A stretch of 35,822 nucleotides of DNA from a bacterium. Its GTDB lineage: Bacteria > Planctomycetota > Planctomycetia > Pirellulales > Pirellulaceae. The stretch lies in the NCBI GenBank assembly GCA_024743355.1, contig JANSWS010000026.1, positions 1 to 35,822 of the forward strand, written 5' to 3'. Position 1 is the stretch's first letter, and every line of letters begins with the position of its first letter. Below the pieces are notes generated by a model. It did no database searches. It saw only the letters and a program-made list of their open reading frames with translations, and was not told the origin of the DNA. The position numbers and the translations under genes are program-made. Of the stretch, positions 487-34,043 are shown piece after piece.

Positions 487-2136
487 CTATTGGCCGTTTG
501 AATTGCCTTGGCCGTTATCGCCCTGAGGTGGATTTCCTTCCCCGGGTTGGCCCTCGCCGGCTGCGTTATCACCAGCCTGACCCCCGGCACCTTGGTTGCC
601 AGCAGCGGGAGGCTCGGCTGGCTTATCCTCAACGTGTTCCAACTCGGCACCTTCAACGATATCCGGATAGCGTTCTGCAAAACCGGGAATCGCTTCGACC
701 AGATCCATGATGTCCTCAATGGGAGTCTCAGCTTGCTGCAAAAGACTGTTCACGTCCTTGACGGGTGCGATGTCATTGACGGCTTCCTGCAATGCTTCCA
801 GCTTTTCTGTCAATTCGGTAACGACCGCCTGAAGTTCCGCTGGCATTTGAGCTACGGACAGCGGACGGCCGATCTTTTTCGGGATTTGACCGTCCGCGAC
901 GGCTCGGCCATTCAAGCACAGGTGCACCACTTGCATAATCTGATTTACTTTGCGGCGGGCCAGAATGGTTTGCCAATCTTGCGTGTCAATCGCCTTGGGC
1001 TTACTGGCACGGCCGCCGCCGGCGCCACCATAACCGCCGTAGCCGCCCATACCACCCATGCCGCCCATGCCACCGTACATGCTATCGCCGCCGTAGCCTC
1101 CGCCTCCGCCATCTCCGCCGTAACCGCCGCCGCCGTAGCCACCCATCATTCCGCCGTAGCCACCCATGCCTCCGTACATGCCACCGCCACCTGCGGCTCC
1201 AGTGGCCCGCTGCAGCAAATCGTCTTCTTTTTCGTACCAGGCGACGAGTTGTGTGTAGGTGAAGTGGGCCAAGCTAAACAGATAGTTTTGCTTCTGCTCG
1301 TCCGAAAGCGAGCTACTGCTGATTTGAGTCAGATATTCGGCAGCGCTCAGCCGTACGCTGGGCAATTCTTCCGGATTGCCCAGCCGCTGGATAGCATTAT
1401 CCGCGACTGCAGCTACTCCCGTGGCTCCCAGGCAATCAAAAGCTCGACGGACCATCCACGCATGCGTGGGCGCGTCCAAATCGGTGGCGGCTTCGCTATT
1501 GACGATGCCCACAAGCATTCTGCCAATCGCACTCTTCTGCTGTGGATTCCAGTCACTGAAGAATCGGCCGATGTGACGCTCGAGTCCATACAGAGCGATG
1601 CACCGAAGATAGGCTGGGTTGGTATCGTCTCCCGCGACTTTATACAGGGCCGCCAATGCACCGGCAGCCGGCGACGGGGGCTCGCTGCGGATAGCGGGCA
1701 AATCATCCAATTCTGCCAGCAGAGCCAGGGCATTGATCCGTGACTGGGGGCTGAAGTTCTTGCCTTGGGCGATCCCCGATCCAAATTTCACGATTTGGTC
1801 GATAACAATCTTTCGCGCCTCCGCCGCCTCTGGACGGTAGGTCGCCAAGTACTCGTTGTAGATCCCCATCCGAATGCTGGAGTAGCGATCGACATCATCG
1901 GGACTTGTGAGCCGACGCATTTCCGCTTCGACGACTTTGGCCAAGGCTCCTCTGGCAGCATCCGTGGCAGCACTGCCCTTGGCCAGATCTCGAGCAAGTT
2001 TCCGTTCGCCCCGGGACGGCTCGGTGACTGGCAGCGTGGCGAATTTCTGCGCCATCAGCTGCGAGCCGAACAGCATCACAGCAACCACAGACAGGATTAC
2101 TGGCTGATAAGATCTAACTCTGCCTTGAGAGAACAT
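487..2136 (-). CDS. secreted protein with Gly/Tyr/Met-rich linker, unknown function
   Basis: This 549-residue protein has no recognised function. Residues 1-30 form a signal peptide (hydrophobic VILSVVAVMLFGSQLMA, cleavage likely after MAQ). An alpha-helical region to about residue 305 has spaced helices resembling HEAT-type repeats. A low-complexity block follows (about 310-385) of GGYGG, GGMGG and GGDGG units. A helical segment with a coiled-coil look (AELQAVVTELTEKLEAL) comes next, then an acidic Pro/Gly/Asn/Gln-rich tail. I chose the ATG at 2136 because GGAG lies eight bases upstream; two GTG codons immediately upstream (2145, 2142) are too close to that site. The family looks planctomycete-specific. 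Gly-rich tracts invite slippage, so length variation between strains is likely. Confidence 0.8.
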   Translation of the reverse strand: MFSQGRVRSYQPVILSVVAVMLFGSQLMAQKFATLPVTEPSRGERKLARDLAKGSAATDAARGALAKVVEAEMRRLTSPDDVDRYSSIRMGIYNEYLATYRPEAAEARKIVIDQIVKFGSGIAQGKNFSPQSRINALALLAELDDLPAIRSEPPSPAAGALAALYKVAGDDTNPAYLRCIALYGLERHIGRFFSDWNPQQKSAIGRMLVGIVNSEAATDLDAPTHAWMVRRAFDCLGATGVAAVADNAIQRLGNPEELPSVRLSAAEYLTQISSSSLSDEQKQNYLFSLAHFTYTQLVAWYEKEDDLLQRATGAAGGGGMYGGMGGYGGMMGGYGGGGYGGDGGGGGYGGDSMYGGMGGMGGMGGYGGYGGAGGGRASKPKAIDTQDWQTILARRKVNQIMQVVHLCLNGRAVADGQIPKKIGRPLSVAQMPAELQAVVTELTEKLEALQEAVNDIAPVKDVNSLLQQAETPIEDIMDLVEAIPGFAERYPDIVEGAELEHVEDKPAEPPAAGNQGAGGQAGDNAAGEGQPGEGNPPQGDNGQGNSNGQ

Positions 2137-2400
2137 GGCCACCACTCCGCAATGGGTTGGGTCGAAAGATTAAACTGCTTGGTTCGACGAGGTAGGCTTC
2201 CGCCCGCATCACAACTCTCAGCACATCATCAACGCACGTGTTGTCAGCATTGGATAGCCGGAGCGTTGGATGGCTGGGATGGTCGCTTGGTCCACTTCGC
2301 ACGAGGCGAGCTCTTTATCGGAGCCCCAGGAAGACAAGTAATAGGTACGCCCGGGACCTGCGCAGCCTACTAATAGGCTATCCGACGGCAGCGGCAATTG

Positions 2401-2637
2401 TCAACTTTTTCCAGTATTTTGCCGTTCTTTAGGCCGCTTGATGTTGGACTTGGGCTGTCGCTGGCCAGCCAACCCACCAGAAGCAAGTGCCTTGTTCCCC
2501 GCGAGGCGAATTGCTTCACCGAGCTTTCTACCCCCCAGTCGTTGTGAAGCTACACGCCGCGCGTGGCAGGGAACTGGTCTTCTGAGGGGCTCGAAAGCGA
2601 GAGCGGCGGTAAATGGAATCTTGAACCGCCCGCTCAT
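2401..2637. repeat. putative interspersed repeat, ORF-like on both strands
   Basis: Both strands read open here: a 78-residue frame on the minus strand and a longer one on the plus strand. Neither has a clear ribosome binding site. The translated minus-strand text (Arg/Leu/Ala-rich, with GGRKLGEAIRLAGNKALA) resembles small 'hypothetical proteins' that recur many times in Rhodopirellula-type genomes. I take this as an interspersed element rather than a gene; that identification is from memory and unverified. It abuts, and by a few bases overlaps, the stop codon of the dihydrouridine synthase gene. The remaining bases from 2137 to 2400 hold no gene I can support. Confidence 0.35.
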
Positions 2638-3734
2638 TCATTGCAGCTGGAACCTTGGACGCGGTGGACTTCCGGAGGCGGATAAACCCCCGGTTGGTCC
2701 TGTGAGTACCAGCGATCGAGCACGGACTTCCAGTCTTCCCAGCAGCGAATTTTGGTGAACTCTGGCCGCACCTGCTCGAATTGGGGATGGGAGGCTGAGT
2801 ACTTGATACCGAATTTCCGCATTAAAGGACCTGTGCGGGCTGAACCGTACAGCTGGGCAGCTAATTCCCAGTGCTTTACCAGGACCTCTCGCTGTCGGAA
2901 TACGCTGGGTGGGGGCGGCAGCTCTTCGCCCCGTGCCAAGGCGCGTGCCTGTTCGAAAATCCAAGGATTTCCAATGGCGCCGCGGGCTACTGTAACGCCG
3001 TCCACACCCGTTTCGCTCATCATGCGAAAGCAGTCCTCGGCCGTAAACAGGTCGCCGCTCCCCAGGATCGTTTGCTGAGGAAATTCTCGCTTCAGATCGG
3101 CTAGGAACTCCCAACGACTGGGGCCTCGATAGCGTTGAACAACGGTGCGACCATGCACGGTGGCAGCCGCGATGCCACGGTCGAAGGCGCCCCGCAGAAT
3201 CTCAAAAAACTGGTCCCTGCTCTGGTTAGAGTCGTCGATGCCTCTCCGCATCTTGACGGTTACTGGAATATGAGAAGGCACCATTTCACGGGTTCGCGAG
3301 ACGATTTCCAAGGCCACATCGGGCTGGCTGAGATGGAATCCCCCTCGGCAGCGGCCGAGTACCTTTTTGACCGGGCAGCCAAAATTGATGTCAATGACAT
3401 CGAAGCCCGCAGCCGCCAGCCTTTTTGCACCTTCGGCAAATTGTTCTGGCTCGGCCCCCATCAGCTGGCCCGCAACCGGCTTTTCGTCTTCGGAATTGAA
3501 CAAGAAATGCTTGTTCTTGGCGCGGTCCTTCAATTGCACCAGAAATTGATCCAACATCACCTCGCACAAACTGTAGCTGGCGCCGTGCTGCCGAGCGATC
3601 CAGCGCATGGGCCAATCGCTATAACCGCTGAGCGCGGCCTGGACCACCGGAAAGCCAATATGAACGTTGCCAATCCGGAGCGGCCGGCTTGAGGATTCAG
3701 CTGCATTTGGAATTAGCACTTGTAGATCCGACAC
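2634..3734 (-). CDS. dus: tRNA-dihydrouridine synthase (Dus family)
   Basis: This FMN enzyme reduces uridine to dihydrouridine in the D-loop of tRNA. The 366 residues show the TIM-barrel hallmarks in order: the first strand and FMN loop (AALSGYSDWPMR, about 34-44), GQLMGAEPEQFA, then DINFGCPVKKV with the catalytic Cys at about 120. VTVKMRRGID, TVHGRTVVQRYRG and ILGSGDLFTAED follow, and finally VARGAIGNPWIF, which binds the flavin phosphate. The GCPxKKV motif is closest to DusB/NifR3-type enzymes, but the subfamily is not certain. The start is GTG at 3734 with AAGG about ten bases upstream; a GTG five codons further in is an alternative. The gene is divergent from rpsR. Confidence 0.93.
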   Translation of the reverse strand: MSDLQVLIPNAAESSSRPLRIGNVHIGFPVVQAALSGYSDWPMRWIARQHGASYSLCEVMLDQFLVQLKDRAKNKHFLFNSEDEKPVAGQLMGAEPEQFAEGAKRLAAAGFDVIDINFGCPVKKVLGRCRGGFHLSQPDVALEIVSRTREMVPSHIPVTVKMRRGIDDSNQSRDQFFEILRGAFDRGIAAATVHGRTVVQRYRGPSRWEFLADLKREFPQQTILGSGDLFTAEDCFRMMSETGVDGVTVARGAIGNPWIFEQARALARGEELPPPPSVFRQREVLVKHWELAAQLYGSARTGPLMRKFGIKYSASHPQFEQVRPEFTKIRCWEDWKSVLDRWYSQDQPGVYPPPEVHRVQGSSCNE

Positions 3735-6704: not shown

Positions 6705-7540
6705 GTGGTGAGTCCGGTTCCGAACCAGCGAAGAAAAAGCAGCACCACCACAGCCATGGCCACCATCAACAGGGATACCGCCACCGCGGCATCGAGTTCG
6801 CCAACGCTCAATTCGAGAAACACGGTTGTGGACAGCACTTCCGTCCGAAATCGCGTTGCTCCGGCGAAAACGAGAATGGGACCAAACTCGCCCAGAGCCC
6901 GGGCCCAAGCAATCGTGGCCGCGGTAATCATTCCCCGCCATGCTTGAGGCAAGGCGATCTGTAAAAATGCCTGAGCCCTGGTGCAACCCAGCGTGCGGGC
7001 GACATCCTCGGCTCGCGGGTTGATCTGATCAAAGGTGACACGCATGGTCCTGACTGCAAAGGCGCAGGCTACGGAAAACTGTGCAAGCACAACTGCTGGC
7101 CAGCGATAGGTCACCGGAAAATGCAAGTCATCGCGCAGCCATGATTCCAGTTTCCAGTCGCCCATCGGCAGGTGGAACAGAATCAGCAAACTCAGCCCCA
7201 GCACGAGAGGTGGCAGCACGATGGGAATGTCGACCAGGGTATCGATCAACCAGCGGCCCGGAAATCGGTATCGCGACAACAGATATCCCAAGGGCGTAGC
7301 CACCCACAAGGAAAGAATTGCGGCAATGGTGCAGGTTAGTAGCGTCAAGCGAAAGGCGGCTTGAATTTCAGGCTTGAGCAATGCCTCCCGAAACTCGCCA
7401 AAGGACGTAAAAAGCAGATCTGCCGCGAGCAACAAAATGATCAGCAGGATGAAACAAGCAGAAAGCCCGCCCATGATCAAAAAGAAGAGCATGTCGCTGC
7501 GGCTTCGGTGCGGTCGATGGACATGCTTGGTGGAAGGCAT
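6701..7540 (-). CDS. ABC permease, molybdate/tungstate type (ModB-like)
   Basis: The 279-residue membrane protein has five to six hydrophobic segments. It carries the EAA loop motif typical of ModB/CysT permeases: EDVARTLGCTRAQAFLQIALPQAWRGM, in which the conserved glycine (ARTLG) contacts the ATPase. Other family traits are PLGYLLSRYRFPGR, DIPIVLPPLVLGL and the ending RALGEFGPILVFAG, as in molybdate permeases. The start is probably ATG 7540, preceded by an in-frame GTG; no strong ribosome binding site separates them. An internal ATG at 7492, before the first membrane segment, is also possible. Translation is coupled to the ATPase by a 4-base overlap. The binding protein gene lies beyond the kinase gene on the same strand. 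Confidence 0.9.
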   Translation of the reverse strand: MPSTKHVHRPHRSRSDMLFFLIMGGLSACFILLIILLLAADLLFTSFGEFREALLKPEIQAAFRLTLLTCTIAAILSLWVATPLGYLLSRYRFPGRWLIDTLVDIPIVLPPLVLGLSLLILFHLPMGDWKLESWLRDDLHFPVTYRWPAVVLAQFSVACAFAVRTMRVTFDQINPRAEDVARTLGCTRAQAFLQIALPQAWRGMITAATIAWARALGEFGPILVFAGATRFRTEVLSTTVFLELSVGELDAAVAVSLLMVAMAVVVLLFLRWFGTGLTT

Positions 7541-18668: not shown

Positions 18669-19589
18669 ATGAAACTTGGCTCAGAGGATCCTGTTGAATG
18701 GCTAGCTGTTCGCTGGCTGCAGGAACAACTGGACGCCTTGCAACACCAGAAACCCCATGTCTTGGCCGATGTGGATCCGGAAGGCGTGCATCAGATGCGA
18801 GTTGCGACCCGTAGAATGCGGGCCGTGCTCCGCGTCTGCAAAGACCTGCCAGCGTGCGAGAAGCTACAGCGGCAAAAAGCCGACCTGAAGTGGTTGGCCA
18901 GCCAACTTGGTGCGGTGCGTGATTTGGATGTGGAGTTGGCGAGTCTTGATTCTGCAGGCGACGCTATGCCGGCCGAATATGCTTCAGGCTACACATGCTA
19001 CCAACAACATTTGCAGCGAGAACGGCAAGCGGCTCTTCACGAGTTGAGGCTCAGTGTAAATGGTCCGCGTTATGCCGAGTTGACTCAGGGGCTTGCCGAC
19101 TTCGTCAACTCCTACCAACGGCAGGAGCATCGCGGAGAACCGACGATTCGCGATGCGGCACAGGCTTGGATCAACAAGCAGTATCGACGCGTGCTCCGTG
19201 ACGGACGGACCATCCAACACGATTCGGCAGACGCTCGTCTGCATGCTTTGAGAATCGACTGCAAACGCTTGCGATATCTGTTCGAGTACTTTCGTCCCGT
19301 ATACGGCGCTTCGCTGAAGAATGCCATACGTGAGCTAAAAGTACTGCAGAATGTGCTGGGTGAAGTTCAAGATTCCCACGTGGCCATGCAACGTCTGCTG
19401 GACCATGCTGAAGTCCAATCGCCGACCTCCAACAGCAGGTTCACGCTGATGGCCTTAGGGCATTTGTATTGCTTGCAGGGCCAACGGTTAAGCCGGGCGC
19501 GAAGTCAATTTTTTCAGATCTGGCCCGGTTTTGACCAGCAAGGAAGGCGCAAACGGCTGCTCGCTAGACTGCGAGAGAATCGGTCGTAA
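18669..19589 (+). CDS. CHAD domain protein
   Basis: The 306-residue all-helical protein contains two CHAD half-repeats. The conserved basic motifs are visible: GVHQMRVATRRMRAVLRV (about 39-56), LGAVRDLDVEL, then LHALRIDCKRLRYLFEYFRPVYG (about 190-213) and LQNVLGEVQDSHVAMQRL. CHAD domains bind inorganic polyphosphate through these His/Arg/Lys clusters and often accompany CYTH triphosphatases; no CYTH domain is present here. The protein is probably cytoplasmic (no signal). The ATG at 18669 follows GGGGAATTGGTTT; it stands 51 bases after the DUF1552 stop and could be in the same transcript. A terminator-like repeat lies about 130 bases downstream. Confidence 0.93.
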   Translation: MKLGSEDPVEWLAVRWLQEQLDALQHQKPHVLADVDPEGVHQMRVATRRMRAVLRVCKDLPACEKLQRQKADLKWLASQLGAVRDLDVELASLDSAGDAMPAEYASGYTCYQQHLQRERQAALHELRLSVNGPRYAELTQGLADFVNSYQRQEHRGEPTIRDAAQAWINKQYRRVLRDGRTIQHDSADARLHALRIDCKRLRYLFEYFRPVYGASLKNAIRELKVLQNVLGEVQDSHVAMQRLLDHAEVQSPTSNSRFTLMALGHLYCLQGQRLSRARSQFFQIWPGFDQQGRRKRLLARLRENRS

Positions 19590-19698: not shown

Positions 19699-19788
19699 GC
19701 CGTAACATCGCTCCGCCTTTCAGCGCAGCTTCACAGCTGCGCTTGATTTTTCGTCGCGTCAGCGGAGCTTGTTACGAGCCTACTTGTG
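19699..19788. repeat. 90-bp palindromic repeat, copy 1
   Basis: This sequence is identical over all 90 bases to 20247-20336. The outer arms are imperfect inverted repeats (CGTAACATCGCTCCGC against GCGGAGCTTGTTACG). Inside is a perfect nine-base-pair hairpin, AGCGCAGCT (19722-19730), TCAC, AGCTGCGCT (19735-19743), followed by TGATTTTTC, which looks like an intrinsic terminator on the plus strand and would serve the CHAD gene. Confidence 0.9.
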
Positions 19789-19802
19789 CGTAGGCTCGTA
19801 AC
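19771..19802. repeat. perfect 13-bp inverted repeat joining 90-bp repeat and tandem array
   Basis: GTTACGAGCCTAC (19771-19783), TTGTGC, GTAGGCTCGTAAC (19790-19802). The left arm is the end of the 90-bp repeat and the right arm is the beginning of the first tandem unit. The two repeat families therefore share this terminal sequence in opposite orientation. Confidence 0.9.
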
Positions 19803-20104
19803 CAACGAGCACCTGGGTGATCCGAGGTTCGAGCACCGCCATGCAAAACAGCCGACGGGTGCGCAGTGCAGTTACGGCTGGGTGGACGCGATGAAGTAGG
19901 CTCGTAACCAACAAGCACTTGGGTGAAGCGAGGTTCGAGCGTTGTCATGCAAAACAGCCGACGGGTGCGCAGTGCAGTTACGGCCAAGGTGGACGCGATG
20001 AAAGTAGGCTCGTAACCAACGAGCACCTGAATGAAGCGAGGTTCGAGCATCGCCATACAAAATAGCCGACGGGTGCGAAGTGCAGTTACGGCTGGGGTGG
20101 ACTC
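19790..20104. repeat. tandem array of about 107-bp units, three copies
   Basis: Units begin with GTAGGCTCGTAACCAAC at 19790, 19896 and 20004 and end near GGTGGAC. Unit lengths are 106, 108 and about 100 bases, with roughly 90% identity by eye. The third unit loses similarity after about 20102. Each unit contains the shared GCCGACGGGTGCG...AGTGCAGTTACGGC block. Length differences that are not multiples of three, and the absence of a ribosome binding site, argue against the open frame on the minus strand being a gene. Confidence 0.88.
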
Positions 20105-20246
20105 GTTTCTGCTGAGTGTGGGAGGCACTCGGAACGCGACGGGGTGAACGGGGCCAGCTGTAGTCTGATGTGGGCAGTTTCGTTCCATGCGGCCCGTGGA
20201 TATCGGGGAAGTGCGCACATTCCGGGTCGCACGCGGCCGAACTCTC

Positions 20247-20336
20247 GCCGTAACATCGCTCCGCCTTTCAGCGCAGCTTCACAGCTGCGCTTGATTTTTC
20301 GTCGCGTCAGCGGAGCTTGTTACGAGCCTACTTGTG
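20247..20336. repeat. 90-bp palindromic repeat, copy 2
   Basis: This is an exact second copy of 19699-19788 in the same orientation, 458 bases further on. It carries the same hairpin (AGCGCAGCT at 20270-20278, AGCTGCGCT at 20283-20291) followed by a T run at 20295-20299. It ends 17 bases before the parB stop codon. Bases 20105-20246, between the array and this copy, hold no feature I recognise. Confidence 0.9.
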
Positions 20337-20353
20337 TGTTGACTCGCCGTGGT

Positions 20354-21460
20354 TCACGCTGCCTTGCTATCGGAACGAGGGCAAAGCAGACTGCAGATTC
20401 TTTCAAATTCTTCGGGATTGGCGAAACTGATCACGATTTTTCCGCGACCGCGAGCGTTTTGGCGGATGTCAGTTTTGGTCCCCAGCGATAGCCGCAGTTG
20501 CTGTTCCAGGGCGGCGATCTGTGGCGAAGGGCGGTTGGCGGTACGACTACCAGAGGGGCGATGCAGACCTTCCTGCTCGTCTTCGGCCTCCAATGTCTCT
20601 GCTACGCGACGCTCCGTTTCGCGAACGCTCCAGCCCTCGCCCATGATCTGCCGAGCGAAATCCATCTGCTGCTCCTCTTCGCCCAGAGGAAGCAGGGCCC
20701 GAGCATGACCGGCCGTCATCTTTTCTTGCTGAATCCACTGTTGGATCTCTTCGGGCAATTCCAGCAGCCGCATCAAATTGGCAATCGTACTGCGATCAAT
20801 TTTGAGCCGCTTCGCCAAGTCCTCCTGCTTGCACTGATGCTGGTCAATGTAACGCCGAAAAGACATAGCCTTTTCGATGGCATCCAGATCTTTGCGCTGC
20901 AGGTTCTCGACAATGGCAAGCTCGGCTACCAGGCGATCGTCGGCCTCGCGGACCTCCGCGCGAATCCGGCTCAAACCGGCTCTTATTGCGGCTCGCAGTC
21001 GGCGTTCACCGCTAATCAGCTGGTAGCGATTTCCAACCTGCCTTACCAGGATGGGTTGGAGTTGTTCGTGTTCGCGAATGCTCTCAGCCAACGAGGCCAG
21101 TTCTTCATCATTGAATTTGCGTCGCGGCTGAAACGGATTGTTGTCGATCTCCGAAACGGGGATCTCCAACACGCCTCGCGGCGTTTCAAATTGCTTGAGC
21201 GAAACAGCACCGGTTACCTCGCGTTTGACTTGCGACGCGTTGTCCCGCATCGGCTGTCCAGCAACTGCCTGGACTGGCAGTTTTCCAGCCTGGGCTGAAG
21301 TATGCGATGCGCTAGGGCTTTTCGTGACCGACGAATGCGAGGCAGCTGCCGATGGTTTGGATGGTGCATCCGGCATCGATGCGCCGCCAGAGTCGTGCTC
21401 CTCCAGCGGGGTTCCAAGTAATGCAGCCAAGCCTTTGCCAAGACGACGATCTTTAGTCAC
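20354..21460 (-). CDS. parB: chromosome partitioning protein ParB
   Basis: ParB is the CTP-dependent parS-binding clamp of the ParABS segregation system. The 368-residue product starts RLGKGLAALLG, the ParA-interacting N-terminal motif, followed by a long Ser/Ala-rich linker. The ParB/Sulfiredoxin-like domain follows: IPVSEIDNNPFQPRRKFND, then LAESIREHEQLQPILVRQ, YQLISGERRLRAA (GERR-type CTP motif) and AIVENLQRKDLDAIEKA. The helix-turn-helix QEDLAKRLKIDRSTIANLMRLL and a dimerisation tail complete it. GTG at 21460 is the start: GGAGGT stands nine bases upstream and the start overlaps the parA end by eight bases. I saw no parS palindrome in the window. Confidence 0.94.
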   Translation of the reverse strand: MTKDRRLGKGLAALLGTPLEEHDSGGASMPDAPSKPSAAASHSSVTKSPSASHTSAQAGKLPVQAVAGQPMRDNASQVKREVTGAVSLKQFETPRGVLEIPVSEIDNNPFQPRRKFNDEELASLAESIREHEQLQPILVRQVGNRYQLISGERRLRAAIRAGLSRIRAEVREADDRLVAELAIVENLQRKDLDAIEKAMSFRRYIDQHQCKQEDLAKRLKIDRSTIANLMRLLELPEEIQQWIQQEKMTAGHARALLPLGEEEQQMDFARQIMGEGWSVRETERRVAETLEAEDEQEGLHRPSGSRTANRPSPQIAALEQQLRLSLGTKTDIRQNARGRGKIVISFANPEEFERICSLLCPRSDSKAA

Positions 21461-22199
21461 GTTCGAGCACCTCCATGCACAATTCCAAATAGGCTCGGCA
21501 GCCACGTGAGCGGGGCGCGTAGTCCATTACGCTGATGCCGTGGCTCGGGGCTTCTGAAACAGCTACGTCACGCGGGATGACAGTATCGAAGACGATATCG
21601 CCAAAGAACTCGCGGACCTCGCTGTCTACTTCATGGGTCAGTTCCAGGCTGGGATCATACATCGTCAGCAGGATTCCGCCAAAGGTCAATCTGCCTTGGC
21701 CACGCTGCATAACATCACGAATTACATGAATCATTTGGGTCAGGCCCTCCATGGCGTAGTATTCGCATTGGATAGGCATCAATACTTCTGTGCTAGCACT
21801 CAGCGCGGCCTGCGTCAGTTGGCCCAAGGAGGGAGGGCAATCGATCAGCACAAAGTCGAACGAGGCCATGCCGGTGTCAAGATTTTGTCTGAGTACGGCG
21901 GAATCACTCGATTCACCGCGTTCCAGACGATCCACGTCTACGAAACTGCGGCTGCCAGGCAGAATGCGTAGATTCTCCCAACTCGTATCCTGCAGACTCT
22001 CCCGAAGTGGTTTGTCGAGTAAGAGGGGATGGGCCTCCGATGGGGTAGCTCCAATGCCGCTGGTCGCATTGCACTGCGGGTCCAAGTCGATGAGGAGCGT
22101 GCGTTCGCCAGCGGTCGACAAGCCAACTGCCAAGTTGACCGCCGTCGTCGTCTTGCCAACGCCACCCTTTTGATTCGCTATGCAGATAATCCGAGCCAT
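21453..22199 (-). CDS. parA: chromosome partitioning ATPase ParA
   Basis: The 248-residue deviant Walker ATPase partners ParB. Deviant Walker A is KGGVGKTT (11-18), Walker A' is LLIDLDPQCNAT, Walker B is FDFVLIDCPPSLG, and the C-terminal IPRDVAVSEAPSHGISVMDYAPRSRG block is characteristic of Soj/ParA. The ATG at 22199 gives the canonical MARIICIANQKGGVGKTT start. The end overlaps the parB start by eight bases, so the two are translationally coupled. No other replication or rsmG-type genes neighbour it; the next gene upstream is an FG-GAP lipoprotein whose stop lies 62 bases away on the same strand. Confidence 0.95.
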   Translation of the reverse strand: MARIICIANQKGGVGKTTTAVNLAVGLSTAGERTLLIDLDPQCNATSGIGATPSEAHPLLLDKPLRESLQDTSWENLRILPGSRSFVDVDRLERGESSDSAVLRQNLDTGMASFDFVLIDCPPSLGQLTQAALSASTEVLMPIQCEYYAMEGLTQMIHVIRDVMQRGQGRLTFGGILLTMYDPSLELTHEVDSEVREFFGDIVFDTVIPRDVAVSEAPSHGISVMDYAPRSRGCRAYLELCMEVLERD

Positions 22200-27724: not shown

Positions 27725-27860
27725 CCCAGTGCCACGGCCCTCAGTCCGCAAAGTTGGCATTCAGTGCGGAACGCACGGCAGGATTTAGCCTCGGACTTCA
27801 GTCCGAGGTTCCAATATGCACACCGCCCCCAAAGTCGCGAAGCGACGACAGGAAAAGGCG
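27725..27860. repeat. 58-bp direct repeat copy 2 plus composite hairpin repeat
   Basis: The second copy of the 58-bp repeat (27725-27782) runs into a composite block. GTGCG-GAA-CGCAC is followed by the palindrome CCTCGGACTTCAGTCCGAGG and then GTCGC-GAA-GCGAC plus GACAGGAAAAGGCG. Bases 27762-27860 match 33944-34043 closely. No protein is encoded convincingly. The remaining bases to the surE stop at 27931 are short AACCAGGCCG-type direct repeats and hold no gene. Confidence 0.85.
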
Positions 27861-33639: not shown

Positions 33640-33848
33640 CTCCGCCGCCCTTTCCTGTCGTCGCTTCGCGACTGGGGATTTCGATGTCGTCCGCATTCCT
33701 TGGGCTAAAGCCCAAGGCTAATTCATGCCGTCGCTTCGCGACTAAGACCACCGACCCACCCAAGCGTTGGCCCTGAGTCCCTGCACGATTGCTCCATTGC
33801 GTCGACTTTCCATCAGCACTGGGTTGCTTTTCAGTGCGGAACGCACGG
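33640..33848. repeat. repeat cluster with inverted GTCGC-GAA-GCGAC modules
   Basis: GTCGCTTCGCGAC occurs at 33660-33672 and 33730-33742, the reverse complement of the module at 34017 and in the 27.8-kb cluster. Around the first copy the match extends to a TTTCCTGTCG flank. Between them lies the palindrome CCTTGGGC-TAAA-GCCCAAGG (33698-33717). A GTGCG-GAA-CGCAC module sits at 33834-33846. No gene is supported. Confidence 0.8.
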
Positions 33849-33943: not shown

Positions 33944-34043
33944 CAGTGCGGAACGCACGACAGGATTTAGCCTCGGACTTTAGTCCGAGGAATCAGGCCT
34001 CACCCCGCCCCCAAAGTCGCGAAGCGACGACAGGAAAAAGGCG
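33944..34043. repeat. composite hairpin repeat, second locus
   Basis: CAGTGCGGAACGCACGACAG starts the block, followed by CCTCGGACTTTAGTCCGAGG and GTCGC-GAA-GCGAC with GACAGGAAAAAGGCG. It matches 27762-27860 at about 90% by eye, in the same orientation. It ends 12 bases before the stop codon of the JetC-like gene. Confidence 0.88.

Follow-up and report, generated by a model that had tools for sequence, protein, structure and literature searches.

The repeat island between the CHAD-domain gene and parB is very probably a local REP/REPIN cluster, which consists of hairpin modules with a GTAG foot, has the RAYT encoded on contig C280 of the same genome as its probable trans-acting mover and has been shaped by local growth or homogenisation. 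Judged from its sequence, such a RAYT-linked REP/REPIN cluster is ordinary in kind, and the trait that distinguishes it is the presence of long, highly variable loops. The window, i.e. the whole stretch of 35,822 nucleotides that was analysed, corresponds to contig C629 in a genome of 8.31 Mb, which has been assembled into 823 contigs.

Since CHAD is located on the plus strand and parB on the minus strand, the island lies between converging genes (Table 1). From left to right, it contains an A module, a 6-nt junction, two B modules and one complete element of the order B-spacer-A. The first-pass annotation had described two 90-bp copies without a single difference, separated by 458 bp, and three units of about 107 bp between them. 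Indeed, positions 19699-19788 and 20247-20336 are identical, the adjacent base differs on both sides, and the three units start where the B modules start. Upon extension to 106 bp, the A copies are 95% identical, and the tandem array from 19790 to 20102 has a period of 108 with 2.9 copies and 87% matches. Both the 90-bp element (A) and the array unit (B) are modules of a single composite element. It had also been stated that the array unit begins with the exact reverse complement of the end of the 90-bp element. The complementarity is exact, with GTAGGCTCGTAAC at the start of the unit and GTTACGAGCCTAC on the plus strand of the 90-bp element, but the 13-mer stops five bases short of the 90-bp end. 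At the right border, where a decayed remnant of another B head probably follows the second A module just ahead of the parB stop codon, the repeat family extends to position 20346. An Rfam scan of the window yielded three matches at the gathering score, none of which is located inside the island.

Table 1 Features of the repeat island and its neighbouring genes (positions in the window)
Feature	Position	Strand	Remark
CHAD-domain gene	18669..19589	+	left neighbour, converging on the island
Module A, copy 1 (left 90-bp element)	19699..19783	-	GTAG foot at 19783
Nine-pair inner hairpin, then TGATTTTT	19722..19743	+	second copy at 20270-20291
A/B head-to-head junction	19771..19802		13-bp inverted repeat with a 6-nt gap
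GTTACGAGCCTAC	19771-19783 and 20319-20331	+	
Flank common to both A copies	19784-19788		outside module A
Module B, copy 1	19790..19878	+	
Module B, copy 2	19896..19984	+	17 nt past copy 1
Module B, copy 3	20004..20092	+	19 nt past copy 2; opens the complete element
Complete composite element B-spacer-A	20004..20331	+	328 bp, GTAG feet outward
Spacer of the complete element	20093..20246		154 nt
Module A, copy 2 (right 90-bp element)	20247..20331	-	GTAG foot at 20331; closes the complete element
Probable remnant of another B head, decayed (GTTGACTCG)	20332..20346	+	after the second A module, as read from the sequence
parB	20354..21505	-	right neighbour, converging on the island

Read from the GTAG foot, module A consists of GTAGGCTCGTAACAAGCTCCGC, about 45-50 variable bases and GCGGAGCGATGTTACGGC, and module B consists of GTAGGCTCGTAACCAACGAGCAC, a comparable variable stretch and GTGCGAAGTGC(A/C)GTTACGGC. 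The aligned modules are 85-88 nt (A) and 87-93 nt (B) long. The A alignment comprises 25 modules of 30 rows; five rows of more than 100 nt were dropped, four of which start one head early and one of which is a 106-nt copy. The GTAG foot, which as an unpaired GTAG or GTRG tetranucleotide is typical of REPs and REPINs, is present in 25 of 25 aligned A modules and in 23 of 24 aligned B modules, a rate that is biased upward because the modules were gathered by a fuzzy head search. The module map, for which heads were searched with mismatches allowed and which is biased towards copies whose head is intact, contains 55 modules (29 A and 26 B), shortened rows and the rows of the contigs C691 and C193 being left aside. 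A complete element is composed of a B module, a spacer of 137-239 nt and an inverted A module; the 17 aligned elements have a total length of 315-418 bp and their GTAG ends point outward. In these 17 elements, column identities were averaged by region on 321 of 425 alignment columns. The B stem has a mean of 0.94 on one side and 0.92 on the other, and the A stem 0.97 and 0.96, compared to 0.50 and 0.49 in the two loops and 0.64 in the spacer. Inverted doublets and clusters are a trait of REPs and REPINs, and both occur here: the 17 complete elements are inverted doublets, and several clusters were found. Some open reading frames run through the elements. However, a coding reading was rejected, as no credible Pfam domain was detected in the 42 ORFs (at least 80 aa, closed at both ends) that overlap the 55 modules (weak matches at 0.0014 and 0.007) and as the translations of separate copies are, by eye, mutually out of frame.

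Many dispersed extragenic copies, a further trait of REPs and REPINs, were found in the genome. The exact 13-base head GTAGGCTCGTAAC occurs 62 times on 21 contigs, in forward orientation in 38 cases and in reverse orientation in 24, and its reversed-pattern control occurs 0 times in the same genome. The first-pass annotation had made its mobile-element interpretation dependent on the occurrence of the sequences outside the island, which these dispersed termini confirm. A blastn search with a 661-bp island query against the own genome returned 95 matches at E values of up to 10, the window itself counted, of which the weakest are probably due to chance. Moreover, sequence-only models of the two modules gave at least 53 (A) and at least 55 (B) matches at E values of up to 0.01 among the best 150 of 2,869 and 2,705 candidates, respectively, and one place can match both models. 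As 150 candidates were scored per genome, copies may be missed. Across the family, the exact head is present in 19 of 241 genomes, and only the window genome (62) and G013, which belongs to the same genus (115), exceed three copies; the remaining 17 genomes contain 1 to 3 exact heads each. With the module models, at least three weak partial A matches were obtained in G013 and none for B among the candidates scored; in the other 13 members of the genus, no match was present among the best 150 of 1,493 to 3,410 candidates per relative.

In 11 of the 23 repeat-bearing contigs of the window genome, a copy is located no more than about 110 bp from a contig end, and the copy number in the genome is therefore probably a lower bound. 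The same contig ends, together with the fragmentation into 823 contigs, could be taken as a sign that the island is an assembly artefact, in which repeats were collapsed or misjoined. However, contig C629 continues far beyond both borders of the island, the modules are found on many contigs, and G013, a separate assembly, contains repeats of like design. An artefact is therefore highly improbable, although the assembly could have the count of B units incorrect.

The genome contains eight matches to Y1 transposases, one of which is the gene on C280. Its product scores 186.8 bits against the NCBIfam model REP_Tyr_transpos (cut-off 80) and matches the E. coli TnpA-REP (4er8) at 7.9e-36; the HxH and Y..NP motifs are kept in the alignment, and the homology is domain-wide, including WQPR.WEH. 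Six exact heads are located within 1 kb of the gene, on both sides; one B module lies so close that its foot and the TAG stop codon of the gene have one base in common. No exact head was found in the 1.8 to 3.3 kb surrounding the other seven Y1 genes, some of these stretches ending at contig ends. Thus, the TnpA-REP gene for which the first-pass annotation had recommended to search is present (G000:C280:4647-5300, minus strand). As is typical of REP/REPIN systems, this cognate RAYT gene encodes the HUH and tyrosine motifs and has the repeat on both sides. The earlier suggestion that a single REP/MITE-like mobile family built both structures of the island is supported by the dispersed termini and by the location of the RAYT gene among copies.

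A similar arrangement exists at other RAYT loci. Fourteen loci were collected and 12 of them were scanned, leaving out L096, which is cut by a contig start, and L114, which shares its contig with L091. In 10 of these 12 loci, a GTAGG-headed 13-mer is found on both sides of the gene within 1 kb, and the same flanking scan was negative for all 12 parB loci and for all 66 mock genes placed along the window. The ten RAYT loci carry eight different GTAGG heads, for instance GTAGGCTCGTAAC, GTAGGCCGGAACA, GTAGGGTGGGACA and GTAGGCCGTAACA. At L095, whose product is a distant Y1 protein with 30% identity, the 13-mer is headed by GTGG, and L093 has no repeated head within 1 kb, a GTAGGCCGGACC head being readable on its right flank. 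The RAYT tree and the identity matrix cover 10 of the 12 loci, without L117 and L095. A locus-specific pairing of RAYT and REP is a habit that has been described for other systems (PMC6006769, PMC3733652, PMC3116915). In Neorhodopirellula pilleata (L115, NZ_SJPM01000004.1, 1524-3377), the RAYT gene is embedded in a regular GTAGGCTGGGT-headed array with a spacing of about 121 bp, and within 1 kb of the gene one head occurs 11 times and the other 8 times.

Since the complete elements end in 13-bp inverted repeats and encode no credible protein domain, they could be regarded as MITEs of an ordinary insertion sequence of the DDE type, whose termini would be the TIRs of a deleted transposon. This origin is very unlikely, because the termini bracket the RAYT gene on C280, because the conservation comprises hairpin-forming modules that reach 85-93 nt deep from each end behind the GTAG foot, and because an equal pattern surrounds other RAYT genes. 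An integron cassette array, or a set of attC remnants, would likewise consist of stem-loop sites with AAC/GTT cores, which are served by an integron integrase. Indeed, the cores of the modules superficially read AAC...GTT, and the genome encodes an integron-type integrase on C387 (370.7 bits, cut-off 265). The core pair of an integron attC site is RYYYAAC ... GTTRRRY. This pair was found in 0 of the 55 modules, no head with up to two mismatches is present on the integrase contig, which is short (4435 bp), and the modules are arranged in inverted order and without recognised coding cassettes. The attC reading, which is extremely improbable, was therefore rejected on the basis of the core motifs and the integrase contig. 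The integrase match at 2110-3042 of L163 (C387) is a strong one, and a simple core-pair scan found no attC-like site on that contig.

As a RAYT-associated family, the repeats of the window resemble several described systems. They have in common with the GTAG-tagged REPs and REPtrons, as these are presented in PMC3733652, PMC6006769 and PMC2817692, a hairpin with a GTAG foot, a large number of dispersed copies, the occurrence in pairs and clusters and a cognate RAYT gene with repeats beside it. Moreover, Planctomycetes including R. baltica are listed as REP hosts (PMC3733652). The REPINs of Pseudomonas fluorescens SBW25 are also built as units of an inverted REP doublet with a spacer, and they form ordered clusters of near-identical tandem units, with a cluster beside the RAYT gene (PMC3116915). 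However, the SBW25 doublets are reported to peak at distances of 71 and 110 bp, taken between conserved 16-mers, whereas the elements of the window genome span 315-418 bp, and the pairing of two different modules in a complete element is another difference from these REPINs (PMC3116915). In TIRtrons (TIRYT), a RAYT-like gene is located between long inverted repeats, which can form a repeat family; their TIRs are described as mostly unrelated to GTAG repeats, whereas the ends of the window family carry the GTAG foot (PMC3733652). E. coli REPs have bulged stems, as does module A, and the REPs of Marinomonas, which are 42 and 38 nt long, have large and poorly conserved loops (PMC8266576). A deviation concerns the size: REPs are described with a length of 20-40 bp (abstract of PMC3733652) and with loops of 2-20 nt (Table 1 of PMC3733652), whereas the modules of the window family (85-93 nt) and their loops (about 45-50 nt) exceed both ranges. 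This comparison covers the text and Table 1 of that study, whose figure with the R. baltica consensus sequences could already show planctomycete REPs with long loops (PMC3733652).

An imperfect palindrome over the foot, another trait of REPs and REPINs, is formed by module A and is weaker in module B. Folded as single-stranded DNA, the A module of the window has a z-score of -6.4 and leaves GTAG unpaired. The A stem comprises 15 pairs, and 98.9% of the cells are paired in the 25 aligned modules, compared to 28-58% in slid controls. Changes on both sides occur in 2 of the 15 pairs, nine pairs are invariant, and the number of further pair types (4) is not above that in shuffles (4.2). Thus, the covariation support for the A stem is thin. 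The consensus stem of B has 14 pairs, none of which is compensatory, and one B copy of the window that was folded gave z-scores of -1.7 and -1.0 on the two strands, which are not distinct from shuffles.

The comparison with G013 suggests which part of the repeat could be recognised. The RAYT of G013 is 59% identical to that of C280, and the G013 repeats, whose modules have a length of about 32 nt, have the foot and the basal stem GTAG-GC-T-CGTAAC ... GTTACG-GC in common with the window family, while the rest differs. The window family therefore looks like ordinary REPs with loops that have been expanded by about 50 nt. From the conserved foot and stem, it may tentatively be proposed, with somewhat less than an even chance of being correct, that the elements are expanded-loop hetero-REPINs, of which the transposase would read the GTAG foot and the basal stem only, and that the loops may carry passenger DNA. 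Such a recognition would leave the roughly 50-nt loops of both modules free to diverge, beyond the spacer.

The bases that precede the heads vary with the module. The A heads are mostly preceded by CAA (C in 27, A in 25 and A in 32 of 34 distinct flanks), and T is the commonest base at position -1 of the B heads (14 of 26 distinct flanks). At one end of the G013 repeats, T is found at positions -1 and -2 in 18 of 22 flanks each, and at the other end the majority sequence is CTGGA (17 to 20 of 24 flanks per base); these counts were made with 22 and 24 distinct heads from part of the 115 heads of that genome. It has been reported that TnpA-REP proteins cut at CT and that one of them also cuts at CA (PMC8266576), with which CAA in front of the window A modules and TT or CTGGA in G013 are compatible. 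A cut in the few bases before the foot is thus a reasonable prediction and no more, and by analogy our guess is that the window family would be cleaved in the bases just before GTAG.

Copies of the same locus are more alike than copies of different loci. For A, the identity is 0.916 within and 0.729 between loci, and for B it is 0.848 within and 0.748 between loci; in both cases, 0 of 5000 label shuffles reached the observed value (p 0.0002). The comparison included 29 A modules in 19 loci (11 within-locus pairs) and 26 B modules in 16 loci (12 within-locus pairs), with C280 counted as three loci. Identical A pairs exist in the window island and on C81. The likeness within loci indicates that the clusters grow or are homogenised locally; the recent duplication or gene conversion that had been assumed from the perfect identity of the 90-bp copies is thereby supported in kind, and the data fit tandem duplication as well as gene conversion. 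B-B junctions with 17-20 nt between the modules recur on C629, C803 and C449, and this spacing may reflect a preferred event, although the head-based search biases the view. Of 11 shortened model matches away from contig ends, nine lack the tail and two lack the head, two of the nine also missing the first 1-2 head positions and same-locus copies not being independent; the clusters may thus grow by events that are anchored at the head.

By analogy to known enzymes, the RAYT of C280 would act in trans as a probable nuclease that recognises the foot and the basal stem on single-stranded DNA. It would then move or copy the element, as suggested by its association with the repeats and by the biochemistry of other TnpA-REP proteins, and local growth or homogenisation would have given rise to the identical A pair and to the B-B-B run of the island. 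A search of the genus, where parB was found in 12 of the 14 other genomes, yielded no empty site. CHAD is located beside parB, within about 1.5 kb, in none of these 12 relatives, the contig of L109 ending about 90 bases past parB, and the island may lie at a breakpoint of gene order. In the 12 relatives, parA is located beside parB in all cases.

The position of the island could also mean that it is a terminator or barrier between the convergent genes CHAD and parB, which is kept for this function, mobility belonging to the past. The neighbours are indeed convergent, and the nine-pair hairpin with a T run that the first-pass annotation had noticed is present in both 90-bp copies. However, among the 29 A modules, the hairpin and T run occur in the two window copies only, and the terminator look is therefore not a feature of the family; the label "terminator-like" that had been given to the element is not supported as one of its properties. 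Moreover, the hairpin points along the plus strand only, and two terminator-like matches in the region are no excess over shuffled sequences (mean 1.4, sd 1.2). A conserved terminator function thus has very little probability as an explanation for the island. The hairpin of the window could still have the side effect of terminating CHAD transcripts, and the REP/REPIN cluster might possibly affect the expression of parB or CHAD.

The ten RAYT loci with their eight GTAGG heads provide a planctomycete instance of the RAYT/REPIN partnership, which comes with natural variants. The two genomes that have the foot and the basal stem in common and differ in the rest would allow a direct test of the part of the REP that is read by the transposase. 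Moreover, a hairpin with a T run in such genomes may belong to a repeat element and is not necessarily a dedicated terminator, and it has to be considered that assemblies break at such repeats.

The genome contains further repeats. The Acido-Lenti-1 motif (RF01687), which has been given for Acidobacteria and Lentisphaerae (PMC2864571, Table 1), occurs three times in the window, at 33698-33743 (plus strand), 33945-33990 (minus strand) and 27763-27808 (minus strand), and one pair is inverted at a distance of about 200 bp. In the genome, 24 matches are present on both strands, 22 of which are above the gathering score, and seven of eight Acido-Lenti-1 stretches show further short adjoining hairpins, for instance GTCGCTTCGCGAC or CCGTGCGTTCCGCACTG. 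A link of these elements to a Y1 transposase was not found in the eight Y1 loci. Here, Acido-Lenti-1 has the look of a dispersed palindromic DNA element and may thus represent a mobile repeat rather than an RNA gene. A further family with GTAGGCTCG heads (GTAGGCTCGCTAA / GTAGGCTCGTGAA), which is distinct from the window family, is present at G000:C691:4734-4982 and 7111-7536, where it forms inverted pairs that are about 205-220 bp across.
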